From: Hyphomonas jannaschiana VP2
Lineage (GTDB): Bacteria; Pseudomonadota; Alphaproteobacteria; Caulobacterales; Hyphomonadaceae
Assembly: GCF_000685215.1 (NCBI RefSeq)
Contig: NZ_ARYJ01000001.1
Span: 248,001-312,000, forward strand
DNA length: 64,000 nucleotides
Direction: 5' to 3'
Within the stretch, counting starts at the first letter, position 1, and each line of letters opens with the position of its first letter. Positions 9,993 to 46,818 of the stretch are shown one piece after another. The notes under the pieces were generated by a model. That model searched no databases, had not been told where the DNA came from, and saw nothing but the letters and a program-made list of their open reading frames with translations. Made by a program: the position numbers and the translations under genes.

Positions 9993-10727
9993 ATGAAGGT
10001 CTTCATCCATGGCGTGCCGGACACGCCGCACCTCTGGAAGCCGCTGATCGCGGCGCTTGGCCTTCAGCCATCTGAGTATTTCGCGCCTGCCCTGCCCGGC
10101 TTCGGCACGCCGCTGCCGAAAGGCTTTGCCTGCACCAAGGACGCCTATGCCGACCATCTGATTGGCGAGATCGAGAAGCTTGGCCAAAAGATCGATCTTG
10201 TCGGCCATGACTGGGGCGCGCTCCTGTCCCTGCGCATTGCCAGCCTGCGGCCGGACCTGATCCGCACCTGGTGCGTCACCAATGCGGTGATCGACCCGGA
10301 CTATCGCGGCCACCAGACGGCGCGGATGTGGGCGACGCCCCTGCTCGGCGAATTCGTTATGCTGAACATGCGCAACAAGCCGCGCCTTGAAGCCGCCCTC
10401 GTCGAAGGCGGCATGCCGGCCGGTCTTGCGAAGGAAGAAGTGCCGCTGATCGACAAGACGATGCGCCAATCCATCCTGAAGCTCTACCGCTCGGCCGTGG
10501 GCCTGCGCTTCTCCGGCGACTGGGTCAGCGACCTCGCCAACCTCCCCCGTCCGGGCCAACTCTTCTGGGGCGAGACCGACCCCTATGTCGACCTCTCCGT
10601 CGCCGAGCGCTTCTCGAAAAACCACAACGTGCCCCTGCACATCGAAAACGGCGCCGGCCACTGGGCCTGCGCCGAACGCGCAGATGCGTTCGCCGCCGTG
10701 CTGAAAGCGCTCTGGGCAAAGGGCTGA
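9993..10727 (+). CDS. Alpha/beta hydrolase (haloalkane dehalogenase / epoxide hydrolase-like)
   Basis: 244 residues with an alpha/beta hydrolase fold. The nucleophile elbow is GHDWGA, with Asp in place of Ser, as in haloalkane dehalogenases and epoxide hydrolases. A likely acid lies in GETDPYVD and the catalytic His in GAGHWACAE near the C terminus. The protein is shorter than characterised dehalogenases (about 290-310), with a reduced cap region, so the substrate is uncertain. AGGAGGA overlaps the end of the preceding gene and serves as its ribosome site. Confidence 0.84.
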   Translation: MKVFIHGVPDTPHLWKPLIAALGLQPSEYFAPALPGFGTPLPKGFACTKDAYADHLIGEIEKLGQKIDLVGHDWGALLSLRIASLRPDLIRTWCVTNAVIDPDYRGHQTARMWATPLLGEFVMLNMRNKPRLEAALVEGGMPAGLAKEEVPLIDKTMRQSILKLYRSAVGLRFSGDWVSDLANLPRPGQLFWGETDPYVDLSVAERFSKNHNVPLHIENGAGHWACAERADAFAAVLKALWAKG

Positions 10728-10785
10728 TCCGGCATAGTCATTTATAGTCCGGTATGGTCATGGGTCGTCATGCATGGTCATGGCG
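10728..10785. repeat. 58-bp CATGA-rich repeat, copy 1
   Basis: Begins directly after the hydrolase stop codon. It is built from repeated ATGGTCATG/GTCATGCATGG units with two TCCGG blocks. Its reverse complement matches 44701-44758 at 45 of 58 positions without a gap, by hand alignment. Both copies lie at the edge of repeat islands. No coding frame is evident. Confidence 0.75.
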
Positions 10786-10828
10786 TAGTCGGATCTAATC
10801 CGCCGCCAGTCACCCAACGCACGCCCGT

Positions 10829-10996
10829 GTCATCCCGGAATTTGCGCAGCAAATATCCGGGAGCCAGCACGCGCCCGTGCTTCGACTTCGCTCAGCATGA
10901 GCGCTTCAAAAGTGCGGACTCATCCTGAGCGAAGTCGAAGGATGAACGGCAAAGGAACAAGATCCCGGATAAGCGCTGCGCGCTTTCCGGGATGAC
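10829..10996. repeat. Inverted-repeat element with GTCATCCCGGAA ends, interrupted copy
   Basis: The element starts with GTCATCCCGGAA (10829-10840) and ends with its exact reverse complement TTCCGGGATGAC (10985-10996). Its left 36 bases (10827-10862) match 43506-43541 exactly. Compared with the second copy (99 bp), this one is longer because another inverted repeat sits inside it (10880-10940). It is non-coding and resembles a palindromic intergenic element that can fold into a long hairpin. Confidence 0.85.
10880..10940. repeat. Nested CTTCGACTTCGCTCAG inverted repeat
   Basis: Perfect 16-bp arms: CTTCGACTTCGCTCAG at 10880-10895 and its reverse complement at 10925-10940, with a 29-bp loop. 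It sits inside the larger GTCATCC element. The 21 bases at 10911-10931 recur exactly, in inverse orientation, at 43708-43728. This is a second dispersed repeat family. Confidence 0.85.
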
Positions 10997-11102
10997 GCGT
11001 GGAGGGGGCTATCCACCAGTTGGCAAGGCCCATCCTGCTGCAACCACTCACCCCAAAACAAACTTATCCAACACCTCCGTGGCCTGACGTATAGTCAGCC
11101 CC

Positions 11103-11531
11103 ATGTCACTCTTTCACCCACCCGCCTGGTTCCCGCCGCAGCTTGCCTTTCTCTGGCCCATTATCTGGGTCCAGGTGCTGATGCTGCGCGCACAGATCCG
11201 GGCCGCCTATGGCCGGGGTGTCGTGTATCGCTGGAGCGTGACGGACAATCTGCGCGTCTATCTGGTCAGCATTGAATGGATGCCGGGGCAGAAAAAAGAA
11301 CGGACGCATCTGCAGCCCGCTTCGCATTATAACGACCGCCTCGCCGCGGCGTGCGATGGCCGTGCGGCAGCCCCCGCCCATTTCCACTTGCTGCCCCTTC
11401 TCCTTGGGGAGAAGGGGTTGGGGATGAGGGGTAAAGGCGCTTCCGCACGCGCAGCACTTGCAGAAACGTCGCGCCCCCTCACCCCAACCCCTCTCCCCAA
11501 GGAGAGGGGCTTGCCTTTGCCGGAAACCTGA
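11103..11531 (+). CDS. Hypothetical protein whose C terminus reads into a repeat
   Basis: 142 residues. The first about 95 residues look like a real protein: a short hydrophobic segment (PPQLAFLWPIIWVQVLMLRAQI) then a compact Tyr/Trp-containing domain (VVYRWSVTDNLRVYLVSIEW). From about residue 97 (LLPLLLGEKG...) the frame passes through an inverted repeat at 11394-11510, giving the low-information tail LTPTPLPKERG. The original C terminus was probably replaced by the repeat. The hydrophobic segment suggests membrane association. Function unknown. Confidence 0.55.
   Translation: MSLFHPPAWFPPQLAFLWPIIWVQVLMLRAQIRAAYGRGVVYRWSVTDNLRVYLVSIEWMPGQKKERTHLQPASHYNDRLAAACDGRAAAPAHFHLLPLLLGEKGLGMRGKGASARAALAETSRPLTPTPLPKERGLPLPET
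11394..11510. repeat. CCCCTTCTCC / GGAGAGGGG inverted-repeat element
   Basis: The left arm (11394-11431) contains its own hairpin CCCCTTCTCC-TTGG-GGAGAAGGGG followed by TTGGGGATGAGGGG. The right arm (11474-11510) reads CCCCTCACCCCAACCCC and then CTCTCC-CCAA-GGAGAG. Outer arms pair as well, so the whole 117 bp can fold into one structure. The base composition is unlike the flanking genes. It lies inside the 3' end of the preceding reading frame. Confidence 0.8.
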
Positions 11532-11603
11532 CGCCAACCCTGAGCTCAAAACCCAGACCTACACCAAGCGCCTTCACGGGCGTCATCTGTGCTGGTGAAG
11601 ATG

Positions 11604-11870
11604 TCAGCCGTCGCTCCGGCCGAAATAATTGTAGAGCGTCGCGATTAGCCAGGCGAGCGCACCGCCCGACAGGCTCCAGACAAAGAGGCCAGCAACGATC
11701 CCGGCAGGATTCATCGACCACGCCATGCCATGGAAGTTCGTGTGCATCATGTGTCCGCTGAGCGACATCATGCCTCCCGGGGCGATCCCGACGAGCGCCG
11801 TGCAGATCAGCCACGCAATCGCAATGGCTATGGCAACGGCGACAAATAATCTGTTTGGATTCAGTTTCAT
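11604..11870 (-). CDS. DUF5676-like small membrane protein
   Basis: 88 residues with two hydrophobic helices: LFVAVAIAIAIAWLICTALVGIAP and GIVAGLFVWSLSGGALAWLIATLYNYF. The opening KLNPNRL and the closing helix ending in a LYN-type motif fit the DUF5676 family, which often lies near metal-related genes; no such genes are adjacent here. A His/Met-rich loop (MMSLSGHMMHTNFHGMAW) between the helices could bind copper, which is inference. The ATG at 11870 is preferred over TTG at 11888 because AGGTG precedes it. Confidence 0.65.
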   Translation of the reverse strand: MKLNPNRLFVAVAIAIAIAWLICTALVGIAPGGMMSLSGHMMHTNFHGMAWSMNPAGIVAGLFVWSLSGGALAWLIATLYNYFGRSDG

Positions 11871-11960
11871 ATCGGCACCTGTTTTCAACAGGCATCAAAC
11901 GATGCGCCTCAACCGGAGACTCGTCAATGGCGCTCCCGATACCGTGAAACCGGCAGGCGT

Positions 11961-12428
11961 CTACCAGTAGCCCGCCATGATTTCCTTTGCCCAATCCGGC
12001 TCATGGACATCGCCGCGCGGCGCAAAGCCCGACATGACGGGCTTGATGTCCAGCACCGGTGTGCCGTCGATGGCGTCGAGCCCCGTCAGGGTCAGGCGCA
12101 ATCCGTCGACGGAGACGATGTGGCAAGTGGTGAGGCCGATCCGGTTCGGCCGGTTCTTGCCGCGCTGGGCGAAGATGCCGATGCGGGGCCAGTCCTGCCG
12201 GCCGCGGGGGTGGCGTGCGCCGGTCTCGATCTTGTCGTCCGGCACACGGTCGAACAGGAAGACGATTTCGCAATGCGAAAACGCATCGAGGCCCATCAGG
12301 GCCTCGGGCGTGAACTGCTCCGGATCGAGATCGATATGCGCCGGGATGGCATCCCAGTCATCATCGATCGGCGTGTCGCGGGTGGAGGAAACCGTACCGA
12401 TCGGGCGGAGGGTGAACGCCTTGCTCAT
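11961..12428 (-). CDS. trmO: TrmO-family tRNA methyltransferase (t6A37 N6-methyl)
   Basis: 155 residues of the TsaA/YaeB (VirR-like) family; the characterised E. coli member uses SAM to methylate t6A at position 37 of tRNA-Thr. Family markers are LRPIGTVSS at the start, LMGLDAFSHCEIVFLFDR, ARHPRGRQDWPRIGIFAQRGKNRPNRIGLT and LDAIDGTPVLDIKPV. The length equals the catalytic domain; the C-terminal extension of E. coli TrmO is absent. The start has GGAGAGGG upstream. It runs in the same direction as cckA, 26 bp downstream of that gene. Confidence 0.85.
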   Translation of the reverse strand: MSKAFTLRPIGTVSSTRDTPIDDDWDAIPAHIDLDPEQFTPEALMGLDAFSHCEIVFLFDRVPDDKIETGARHPRGRQDWPRIGIFAQRGKNRPNRIGLTTCHIVSVDGLRLTLTGLDAIDGTPVLDIKPVMSGFAPRGDVHEPDWAKEIMAGYW

Positions 12429-43426: not shown

Positions 43427-43507
43427 GGGGATCCTGTCGTTCCGGTGGTTCTGCCATGTTTAAAACGGTTCGGGACGCTTGGCCATTCGCTGCGCCGTCA
43501 TTCCGGT

Positions 43508-43606
43508 GTCATCCCGGAATTTGCGCAGCAAATATCCGGGACCCAGTGCGTCGTTTCGAACCGGGAACCAGGCCCCGGATAAACCCTGCGGGCTTTCCGG
43601 GGTGAC
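43508..43606. repeat. GTCATCC inverted-repeat element, uninterrupted copy
   Basis: Starts GTCATCCCGGAA (43508) and ends TTCCGGGGTGAC (43595-43606), one mismatch from the perfect complement. The first 36 bases of the matching block (43506-43541) equal 10827-10862. At 99 bp this copy lacks the nested repeat of copy 1. It lies in the 411-bp gap between yihY and the 43838 gene. Confidence 0.85.
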
Positions 43607-43635
43607 AAGAGGTGGGCTTCTGCTCTTTGCCTTTC

Positions 43636-43768
43636 ATCCTTCGATGCCCTGCGCTTGCGCTTGGGCCTTCTCGGGGAAATCGCAGTGCGATTTCTTTTCC
43701 CTCGAAGCGCTCAGGATGAGTCCGCACTCCCGGAGCGCTCTTGGCTCGAGCGAAGTCGAAGCACGGGC
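43636..43768. repeat. CTTCGACTTCG-type repeat with internal insertion
   Basis: In reverse orientation this matches the nested repeat of island 1: CTTCGACTTCGCTC, AGAGCGCT, then a 21-base block at 43708-43728 identical to the complement of 10911-10931, and CGAAGGATGA at the far end. An extra segment of about 60 bp containing its own hairpin (AAATCGCAGTGCGATTT, about 43677-43693) is absent from island 1. Confidence 0.75.
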
Positions 43769-43837
43769 GCGGGCGAGCCAGCACCAGCGGCCGGAAACGC
43801 CCCCGCGCTCCGGCAAAATACCTGATTGTCGGCAAAC

Positions 43838-44434
43838 TCAGCTCGTGTCGAAACTGGGCCAGTCTTTCAGCGCTTCGATCAGCTGCACCGTCAGCCCGCC
43901 GGAGACGAGGGCGATGGCCGCGGGCAGACGGTGCGCGTGCGGGATCGGCGGCACGTGCGGTCTCGCCTCACCCGCCGCCTGCCAGCGCTGGATCGTTCGG
44001 GCGAGCCGCCGTGCGCGGCGCCTGTGATGCTTCAGCGTGTCGAGCATGGCCTGCCACCGCGCGATCAGCGGCGCGGCGGGCACAGGCCCGCGCATGGGCA
44101 CCGTCACAGGCCCTTTCATGAAATGCGGGCATGGGCGCGATGGCGCAGACACCATGGTGAAGATGTAGCGGTAGTCTGCGTCTGCCTGCTTGGGCTCGTA
44201 ATAATTGCTGCCGATACGGGGCTTCAGAGGTGCCAGCTTCATCTGCAGCGCGATCAGGAAGATCAGACGGCGGAGCAGCACGGCCAGCCGCTTCAGCTCC
44301 ACCCGCACGCGCCGGTTCACCGATTTCGAGATCGTCTCAGGTGTCTTGTACAAGTCGGCATTCACACCCGCCTCGGCAATCGCGCGGGCGAGCGTGTGCC
44401 AGGCCTGGGAGAGGAAGTCGGTGGGGTCTGTCAT
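43838..44434 (-). CDS. Hypothetical protein in a repeat island
   Basis: 198 residues, very basic, with a helical N-terminal half (AWHTLARAIAEAGVNADLY; LKRLAVLLRRLIFLIALQMKLAPLKPR) and an Arg/Pro/His-rich second half (TLKHHRRRARRLARTIQRW; PHVPPIPHAHRLPAA). No family recognised. A hydrophobic stretch near 50-65 may associate with the membrane. It is flanked by repeat elements on both sides. The gene has no good ribosome site, but the open frame and consistent helical design favour a real protein. Confidence 0.55.
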   Translation of the reverse strand: MTDPTDFLSQAWHTLARAIAEAGVNADLYKTPETISKSVNRRVRVELKRLAVLLRRLIFLIALQMKLAPLKPRIGSNYYEPKQADADYRYIFTMVSAPSRPCPHFMKGPVTVPMRGPVPAAPLIARWQAMLDTLKHHRRRARRLARTIQRWQAAGEARPHVPPIPHAHRLPAAIALVSGGLTVQLIEALKDWPSFDTS

Positions 44435-44480: not shown

Positions 44481-44640
44481 CCCTCACCTCCCATCGCTGG
44501 CGCGATGGGCCCCTCCTCTCCCGCAAGCGGGAGAGGGGTGAAACCGGCGCCGCCGTTACAGGTTTGCTGTCTGGAAAGGATAACCCCTCTCCCTCCGGGA
44601 GAGGCGGGACCCGCGCCCGTGAGGGTCTGGGAGGTGAGGG
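44481..44640. repeat. 160-bp element with perfect 13-bp CCCTCACCTCCCA terminal inverted repeats
   Basis: CCCTCACCTCCCA at 44481-44493 is exactly complementary to 44628-44640. Inside are two smaller hairpins: CCTCTCCCGC-AA-GCGGGAGAGG (44515-44536) and CCCTCTCCC-TC-CGGGAGAGG. The CCCCTCTCC theme resembles the 11394-11510 element. MITE-like; no transposase frame inside. Confidence 0.85.
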
Positions 44641-44700
44641 ATGGGTCCTGAACTATCCTCTCTCAGAAGTGCATGACCAGAGGCGCACCAAACATGACTT

Positions 44701-44758
44701 CGCCATGACTATGTATGATCAGCCATGATTATACCGGACTAAGCCGGACTATACCGGA
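44701..44758. repeat. 58-bp CATGA-rich repeat, copy 2
   Basis: Contains CCATGACTATGTATGATC-type blocks followed by two ACCGGACT/GCCGGACT units. Matches the reverse complement of 10728-10785 at 45 of 58 positions. It lies about 110 bp before the CHAD gene. Confidence 0.75.
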
Positions 44759-44870
44759 TCAGGACGGACTGGAGACTGGCCCCCGCCCCGATTCCACTCT
44801 CAAGCGTATCGCTTTGGCCGCGATGCCGGGTTGCGATACAAAACGTCTTCACCGCAAATGAGATGCCGCC

Positions 44871-46441: not shown

Positions 46442-46818
46442 CCAGACCAGACGGCCGGGCAGCCGCTGGTATGCTGGTAACGGCATGCTGGAGGAAAGTC
46501 CGGGCTCCAGGGATACAGGGCGACGGCTAACGGCCGCCCGGCGCAAGCCGAGGGAAAGTGCCACAGAAAGCAAACCGCCTCCCCCCGGGGAGGTAAGGGT
46601 GAAAGGGTGGGGTAAGAGCCCACCGCGGGACTGGCGACAGGACCGGCACGGTAAACCCCGCCCGGAGCAAGACCGAATAGGGGGCGCGCATGGGCTGTAT
46701 CCCGCCTGCGCCCCGGGTGTGTCGCGTGAGGTGCCTGGCAACAGGCATCCCAGAGGAATGGCTGCCAGACCTGAGCAATCAGGCGAACAGAACCCGGCTT
46801 ACAGGCCGTCTGGTCTTT
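46442..46818 (+). ncRNA. rnpB: RNase P RNA (class A)
   Basis: The RNA subunit of ribonuclease P, which cleaves the 5' leader of tRNA precursors. Visible landmarks in order: the P1 helix formed by 46444-46456 (AGACCAGACGGCC) and its exact complement at 46804-46816; the universally conserved GAGGAAAGTCCGGGCTC from 46491; CACAGAAAGCA near 46562; GACAGGACCGGCACGGTAAACC after 46635; and AGAGGAATGGCTGCC-type late core. Length of about 375 nt is normal. It ends in a short T run. It lies 41 bp after the phosphatase stop, so the region before it must hold its own promoter. None of the frames across it is a real gene. Confidence 0.96.

Follow-up and report, generated by a model that had tools for sequence, protein, structure and literature searches.

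The DNA analysed here, referred to as the window, is a stretch of 64,000 nucleotides from Hyphomonas jannaschiana VP2 (G000:C1:248001-312000); the genome to which it belongs, G000, is assembled to 3.64 Mb on 30 contigs. Two loci in the window, island 1 and island 2, share a set of short repeats, which we term A (GTCATCC), B (CTTCGACTTCG), C (CATGA-rich) and D (CCCCTCTCC). Searching the genome with positions 10500-12000 shows that island 1 is larger than a preliminary description had stated and forms a unit of ~860 bp that extends from 10721 to ~11584-11595. Two other loci (L005 and L008) carry this unit whole-length at ~80-82%, with the matches ending at 10722-10724 and 11584-11595, and three more (L002-L004) contain shortened versions of it. 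The unit is a cassette in which the array C is followed by palindrome A enclosing B, a leaderless-type promoter and an ORF of a multicopy family, termed X, with D in its 3' part. The inverted repeats found within 10700-11600 are internal, and none connects both ends of the cassette. The conserved promoter region starts near a TATCCACC motif (11005-11020; CTTATCCACC in many other X copies), which resembles a DnaA box. The loop of B contains GACTC (10917-10921), which fits GANTC, the CcrM methylation site.

Island 2 is arranged around a second multicopy ORF, that of family Y. Both multicopy genes had been overlooked in the preliminary description, while the repeats it had reported as common to the two islands were all recovered: C (10728-10790 versus 44758-44696, inverted, 78%), A (10824-10867 versus 43503-43546, 95%, including an exact block of 36 bases) and B (10867-10931 versus 43774-43708, inverted, 88%). 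Moreover, the inverted-repeat search detected CCCCTCTCC-type inverted repeats in both islands. In island 2 B adjoins A, whereas in island 1 it is nested inside it. A gene of family Y lies ~33 kb from the X copy at the island 1 site also in two complete related genomes, G036 (3328004 and 3361794) and G019 (664178 and 697218).

Table 1. Features of the two islands, in window coordinates.
Feature	Position	Strand	Basis
Family X cassette, whole unit (island 1)	10721-11595	+	whole-length matches elsewhere in the genome
C, array of ~10-bp repeats at the upstream end of the cassette	10724-10790	+	similarity search, periodicity
A, GTCATCC palindrome (arms 10826-10862 and 10963-10999)	10824-10999	+	inverted-repeat and similarity searches
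B, CTTCGACTTCG palindrome within A	10867-10950	+	inverted-repeat and similarity searches
P, conserved promoter region (TATAGT at 11090-11095, 13 bases 5' of the ATG)	11000-11102	+	conserved across X copies
ORF of family X, 142 aa (core: first ~91 codons; conserved end LPLPET)	11103-11531	+	
D, CCCCTCTCC palindrome, in-frame linker of X	11395-11509	+	inverted-repeat search, translation
A element of island 2, downstream of the Y ORF	43503-43606	+	similarity searches
B element of island 2	43625-43774	-	similarity search
ORF of family Y, 198 aa, multicopy	43838-44434	-	
CCCCTCTCC-type inverted repeats, upstream of Y	44481-44640	-	inverted-repeat search; comparable matches at other places in G036 and G019
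C array of island 2, upstream of Y	44696-44762	-	similarity searches

Family X has ten matches in G000. Nine span the entire conserved length (83-100%) and the tenth is truncated at the end of a contig; two additional matches (E 0.15 and 0.20) were disregarded. Among 61 genomes (G000, 36 others of the genus and 24 from other genera of the order), X was found in 29 and Y in 24, all of the genus Hyphomonas. A profile of 15 X members, searched against 200 genomes of the order, matched 17, namely 16 of the genus and one of a sister genus, the latter weakly (E 6.2e-4). Named records containing X comprise 11 loci in two organisms, again of the genus Hyphomonas. The richest Hyphomonas genomes have ~10-12 X and 10-15 Y matches; for Y, with partial and divergent matches included, we count 10 in G000, 13 in G036 and 15 in G019. 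Identity among 20 X copies is 0.88, 0.91 and 0.66 at the three codon positions, and the median dN/dS is 0.18-0.20 (9 orthologue, 36 G000 and 45 G036 pairs, the last from 10 of the 11 G036 copies). This indicates that X is a protein gene. For Y, dN/dS is 0.19 (51 pairs, without two cut G000 copies). Purifying selection on both X and Y is supported by these sequence comparisons.

All further comparisons of X copies with each other, i.e., identity, mosaicism, motifs, nearest copies and tree, are based on 40 copies from G000, G036, G019 and a fourth genome, G007; the cut G000 copy (C10) and one of the nine G007 copies were left out. The C-terminal motif LP-x-P-E/D-T/S is present in all 40. A TATA[GTC]T box begins 13 bases 5' of the ATG in 38 of them, and a Shine-Dalgarno motif precedes none of the 40. 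The box at -13, together with the missing Shine-Dalgarno motif, suggests that the X mRNA is leaderless. A structural model of the X core (pLDDT 68) consists of a helix at residues 12-36 followed by a two-stranded hairpin, with residues 65-91 mostly below 50. We tentatively predict X to be a small, possibly membrane-associated protein made from a leaderless mRNA. The model of Y, built from one sequence, is helical (pLDDT 52).

The middle and 3' parts of X differ in a genome-typical manner. One 26-residue segment is identical in eight of the nine G000 copies, another in seven of the 12 G019 copies. By simple text rules, the linker is of the D type in 9/12 copies of G019, 6/9 of G000 and one of G036, and in 6/11 G036 copies (e.g., L062, L064 and L065) it is a different palindrome-like sequence (HPGAGRGP...LDPG); neither type was seen in the eight G007 copies. 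The G036 linkers give the impression that another kind of palindrome has spread from copy to copy in that genome. With BLAST, D was detected in X in 7/9 copies of G000, 1/11 of G036, 9/12 of G019 and 0/8 of G007.

In G000 we found 14 matches to A and 43 core matches to B (~two per element), with none for the reversed control pattern in either case, 36 matches to C at E<=1, and seven sites with long matches to D, six of which lie inside copies of X. Contig ends fall inside these repeat units in several cases, as is expected of repeats, so that some copies are cut. Considering only X copies with >=450 bp of upstream sequence, C is present upstream in 6/7, 11/11, 11/12 and 6/8 copies of G000, G036, G019 and G007, respectively, A in 4/7, 10/11, 10/12 and 0/8, and B in 5/7, 4/11, 10/12 and 0/8. 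Thus, most X copies whose upstream DNA is uncut consist, in this order, of a C array, A alone or together with B (G007 excepted), the promoter and the ORF. The arrangement is also directional: in all 11 G036 copies C begins 250-530 bp upstream of X in the same orientation, and the A elements near X (eight in G036, nine in G019) are all oriented as the X ORF. Since G007 has C, the promoter and X and lacks A, B and D, the palindromes seem to be later arrivals. This suggests that A, B and D are later passengers of the X cassettes, the alternative being their loss in G007. Array C itself has a 10-bp period, with a self-identity of 0.52, 0.51 and 0.39 at lags of 10, 20 and 30 compared to 0.25 for shuffled sequence (33 arrays). 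It might be a putative helically phased protein-binding array.

A third multicopy ORF family, Z (e.g., L177:3688-4056), has seven loci in G019 and four in G036. Every one of these 11 loci has A upstream of the ORF and a C-like sequence inside its 3' coding part, and six have B after the ORF. As Z was discovered in the stretches around C sites, its association with C and A cannot serve as independent evidence. The layouts of X and Z are alike, and homology between the two was considered; however, a profile comparison gave a probability of only 0.9 percent (E 0.061), and we do not claim it.

Co-location of the repeats was tested in G036 and G019 at a distance of 1.2 kb. For C, only matches with E<=1e-3 were used (19 in G036 and 20 in G019 after merging); weaker C matches (13/32 and 9/30) and divergent Y matches (3/13 and 2/15) were dropped beforehand. 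Two null models were applied, 2000 rotations in which shifts of less than 20 kb were excluded, and a stricter one with 500 intergenic slots. A lies near C in 8/17 cases in G036 and 13/19 in G019, near X in 8/17 and 9/19, and C lies near X in 11/19 and 9/20; none of these counts was reached in any of the 2000 rotations. The count for C near Y in G036 (2/19) was reached by 11 of the 2000. The strict slot model yields at most four A-C pairs, below the numbers observed in both genomes. In G019, A-B (14/19) and B-C (12/43) likewise exceed the strict maxima of six and seven, whereas in G036 the corresponding counts (4/17 each) equal the maximum of four and are only moderately unusual. That the repeats meet more often than by chance, as had been proposed from the window alone, is therefore borne out by the A-C pairs, which exceed both null models in both genomes. 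Moreover, 11/17 A elements of G036 and 16/19 of G019 have X, Y or Z at a distance of no more than 1.2 kb; the Z part of these counts is not independent, Z having been found via C. Away from X, Y and Z are 6/17 and 3/19 of the A, 9/17 and 25/43 of the B and 5/19 and 3/20 of the C elements in G036 and G019, respectively. Rather than being spread over hundreds of unrelated loci without co-localisation, the repeats number tens per family, and most A elements are close to X, Y or Z.

The X genes occupy corresponding sites in different species. All ten G000 copies share flanks with a G036 X copy, four by both flanks and six by one, and as judged by neighbouring ORFs, 10/12 G019 copies and 8/8 of the G007 copies examined (of nine found) lie at G036 sites. 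The mean identity of the X core within a genome is 0.846 in G000, 0.812 in G036, 0.779 in G019 and 0.753 in G007. Orthologues are less alike than non-orthologues for G000-G036 (0.795 versus 0.809) and G000-G019 (0.722 versus 0.744). In the remaining comparisons they are slightly closer (G036-G019 0.772/0.751, G036-G007 0.697/0.690, G019-G007 0.746/0.697 and G000-G007 0.692/0.683), which counts against concerted evolution. A shared site thus adds little or nothing to the likeness of two X copies, a hallmark of concerted evolution. The nearest copy belongs to the same genome for 26 of the 40 copies, to the orthologous site for five and to another site for six, with three ties; it is in the same genome for 9/9 copies of G000 and only 6/11 of G036. 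Same-genome likeness of X is thus clear for G000 and weaker for G036 and G007. On the X tree, the genome labels need 11 changes, a number as low as this being found in 0/200 shuffles (14/500 for the G000 labels alone). Two orthologous pairs, p4 of G019 and G007 and p8 of G036 and G019, stay together on the tree and also count against concerted evolution. Finally, X copies are mosaic in a PHI-like permutation test, in which the observed value was matched by 0/1000 permutations in G000, G036 and G019 and by 14/1000 in G007. Taken together, these comparisons point to X being protein genes under concerted evolution, the agent most likely being gene conversion.

For family Y the picture is mixed. 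The copies are mosaic (0/500 permutations, without the two cut G000 copies), and in one Y type same-genome identity (0.878 and 0.874) is higher than that of orthologues (0.827 and 0.807). Type-1 Y, with same-genome values of 0.828 (G000) and 0.877 versus 0.823 and 0.883 for orthologues, shows no clear homogenisation, which again counts against the concerted reading. One Y copy of G000 (L226, G000:C3:348500-362500) has an upstream flank that matches the G036 Y locus L236 and a downstream flank that matches L235, likely due to a chromosomal rearrangement at Y copies.

At two sites the cassette is present in G019 and absent from G000 and G036, which shows that copies are gained or lost. Site p13 measures 845 bp in G019 but only 40 bp (G036) and 51 bp (G000) where it is empty, and there a C array alone still follows the stop codon of the upstream gene. 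Site p12 measures 995 bp in G019 versus 31 bp in G036 and G000, neither of which has C; in G019 the C array apparently provides the stop codon of the upstream gene. Comparison by eye of the filled p12 site with the empty ones in G036 and G000, where 31 bp are replaced, revealed no target duplication at this one site.

Searches for relatives yielded little. Neither X nor Y has a match in Pfam (E<=0.1) or NCBIfam (E<=1), and Pfam gave none for any of 15 X relatives. PHROG returned no match for X and a single one for Y at E 0.12, and PADLOC none for X, Y and one Z. In the PDB, the best hits of the X profile are antibody chains (E 0.00037 over a 23-residue stretch), which we judged to be due to chance, and the best hit of Y has an E of 0.33. 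Foldseek comparison of the X core model with the PDB gave cyanase as the best, not significant, hit (E 0.09). X is absent from the phage and plasmid collections searched, and Y from the plasmids. A structured RNA in the islands was also considered and rejected: at the Rfam gathering thresholds the window contains only a bacterial class A RNase P RNA (RF00010, 309.6 bits) at 46447-46817 on the forward strand, ~1.7 kb from island 2. At the level of titles and the openings of abstracts, we found no publication describing families X, Y or Z. PMC5009972 concerns CRISPR repeats and is irrelevant to these families.

In our judgement, it is likely that the islands are members of lineage-specific dispersed Hyphomonas multigene families which are homogenised by conversion, with the palindromes travelling along. 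X and Y would be short protein genes with ~ten copies each at places common to several species, and the same repeats meet at both islands because each island is one copy of a recurring gene unit, and these units have repeats in common. Within each genome, the copies would be kept alike by homologous (RecA-type) gene conversion from one scattered site to another. The palindromes A, B and D would have been acquired by the cassettes of some members of the genus, a D-type sequence having become inserted into a permissive linker of X, and would then have spread along with the conversion tracts. Such spread would place the same repeats together at distant sites. The hitch-hiking of the repeats on one another that the preliminary description had envisaged agrees with this, B lying inside A in island 1 and both within the larger cassette. 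As a best guess, held with low confidence, X, Y and Z could be small accessory proteins, X being anchored by its hydrophobic helix and having a variable stretch that conversion reshuffles.

Other explanations have to be weighed against conversion among recurring gene units. It is rather unlikely that independent REP-like palindromes simply share a preference for certain intergenic hotspots, for instance gene ends, with the ORFs being incidental. In G036 and G019 some A, B and C elements do lie at a distance from all three gene families, a lone C array remains at the empty p13 site, and X copies often lie at gene ends, 14 of the 40 being scored as lying between converging genes (the largest class). 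The last count was made with a crude ORF caller, which got at least one copy, that of the window, wrong. However, order and orientation relative to X are fixed, the matches span the whole unit and the ORF is conserved. Gene ends, which had been put forward as an attracting feature, are a frequent setting of X but are not supported as the main cause of the shared repeats. Nor are sites that merely attract palindromes, or replication-fork pauses: what recurs instead is an ordered cassette around a conserved ORF. Chance scatter of common repeats deserves hardly any credence. Each genome does contain tens of copies of the repeats, but none of the 2000 rotations reaches the A-C, A-B or B-C counts in either genome, and for A-C the strict slot model is exceeded in both.

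The cassettes might also be a mobile element with a cargo ORF that jumps to preferred sites, the likeness within a genome reflecting recent jumps. Such an element would fit their multicopy nature and the almost clean ends with which they are present or missing at p12 and p13. We nevertheless regard it as quite improbable: the sites are common to several species, p12 revealed no target duplication, none of X, Y and Z is recognisably related to a transposase, and no record of the phage and plasmid collections contains X. Finally, the cassette at each site could have been replaced by DNA of other strains through flank homology, so that copies are alike because of a shared donor pool. Some X blocks are indeed common to species at different sites, and the G019 copy at p12 groups with G000/G036 copies. 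Between G000 and G036, however, the flanks are syntenic and mostly 84-94% identical, whereas the ORF cores are less alike between the two genomes than within G000. Alike flanks with less alike cores require exchange between sites, not at one site only. We regard a shared donor pool as very improbable.

Going beyond conversion as such, C could be a dedicated cis-acting site that starts or licenses it, so that the orphan families X, Y and Z would together act as a single system of many sites in which a variable part of the protein is reshuffled again and again. We consider this speculation conceivable but unlikely. Three of the 40 X copies lack C although their upstream DNA is uncut (G019 p4, G007 p4 and G007 p6); the two p4 copies are each other's closest relatives, and G007 p6 has the longest branch. 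However, the promoter block is missing from the p4 copies as well, and reduced homology alone could explain their pairing; moreover, the p8 pair has C and yet pairs by position, which argues against C as the starter of conversion.

In the X/Y system, each family has ~ten loci whose positions are stable from species to species, while the sequences at these loci have been largely reset in each individual genome. The system also draws attention to orphan protein families for which the libraries searched contain no relative. With it, one could examine directly whether palindromes in bacteria can spread through conversion instead of transposition. Concerted evolution of many scattered protein genes has seldom been reported for bacteria, apart from rRNA, tuf and antigen genes.

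Several known systems resemble parts of what we describe. D in X is reminiscent of the Rickettsia palindromic elements (RPE), in which a palindrome is translated in frame within a protein gene; according to the review PMC10969869, RPEs occur in many unrelated genes, at 44 places in one genome. In contrast, six of the seven long D matches of G000 lie in copies of a single gene family that is itself multicopy. Like REP, REPIN and BIME sequences, A, B and C include short dispersed intergenic palindromes with tens of copies, and PMC12306157 gives 3,707 predicted REPs for one Hyphomonas genome. Unlike those, the palindromes here are tied in a fixed order to a conserved ORF. Miniature elements (MITEs) with ORFs, as described in PMC10969869, are likewise short, repeated units whose ORF has no known function. 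The cassettes differ from them in that their sites are common across species, that no target duplication was seen at p12 and that the ORF is under purifying selection. Bacterial rRNA, tuf, PE_PGRS and pilin genes evolve in concert, their copies being alike and mosaic through conversion. What sets X and Y apart from these is that each family comprises ~ten scattered, genus-limited orphan genes with palindromes that would travel along.
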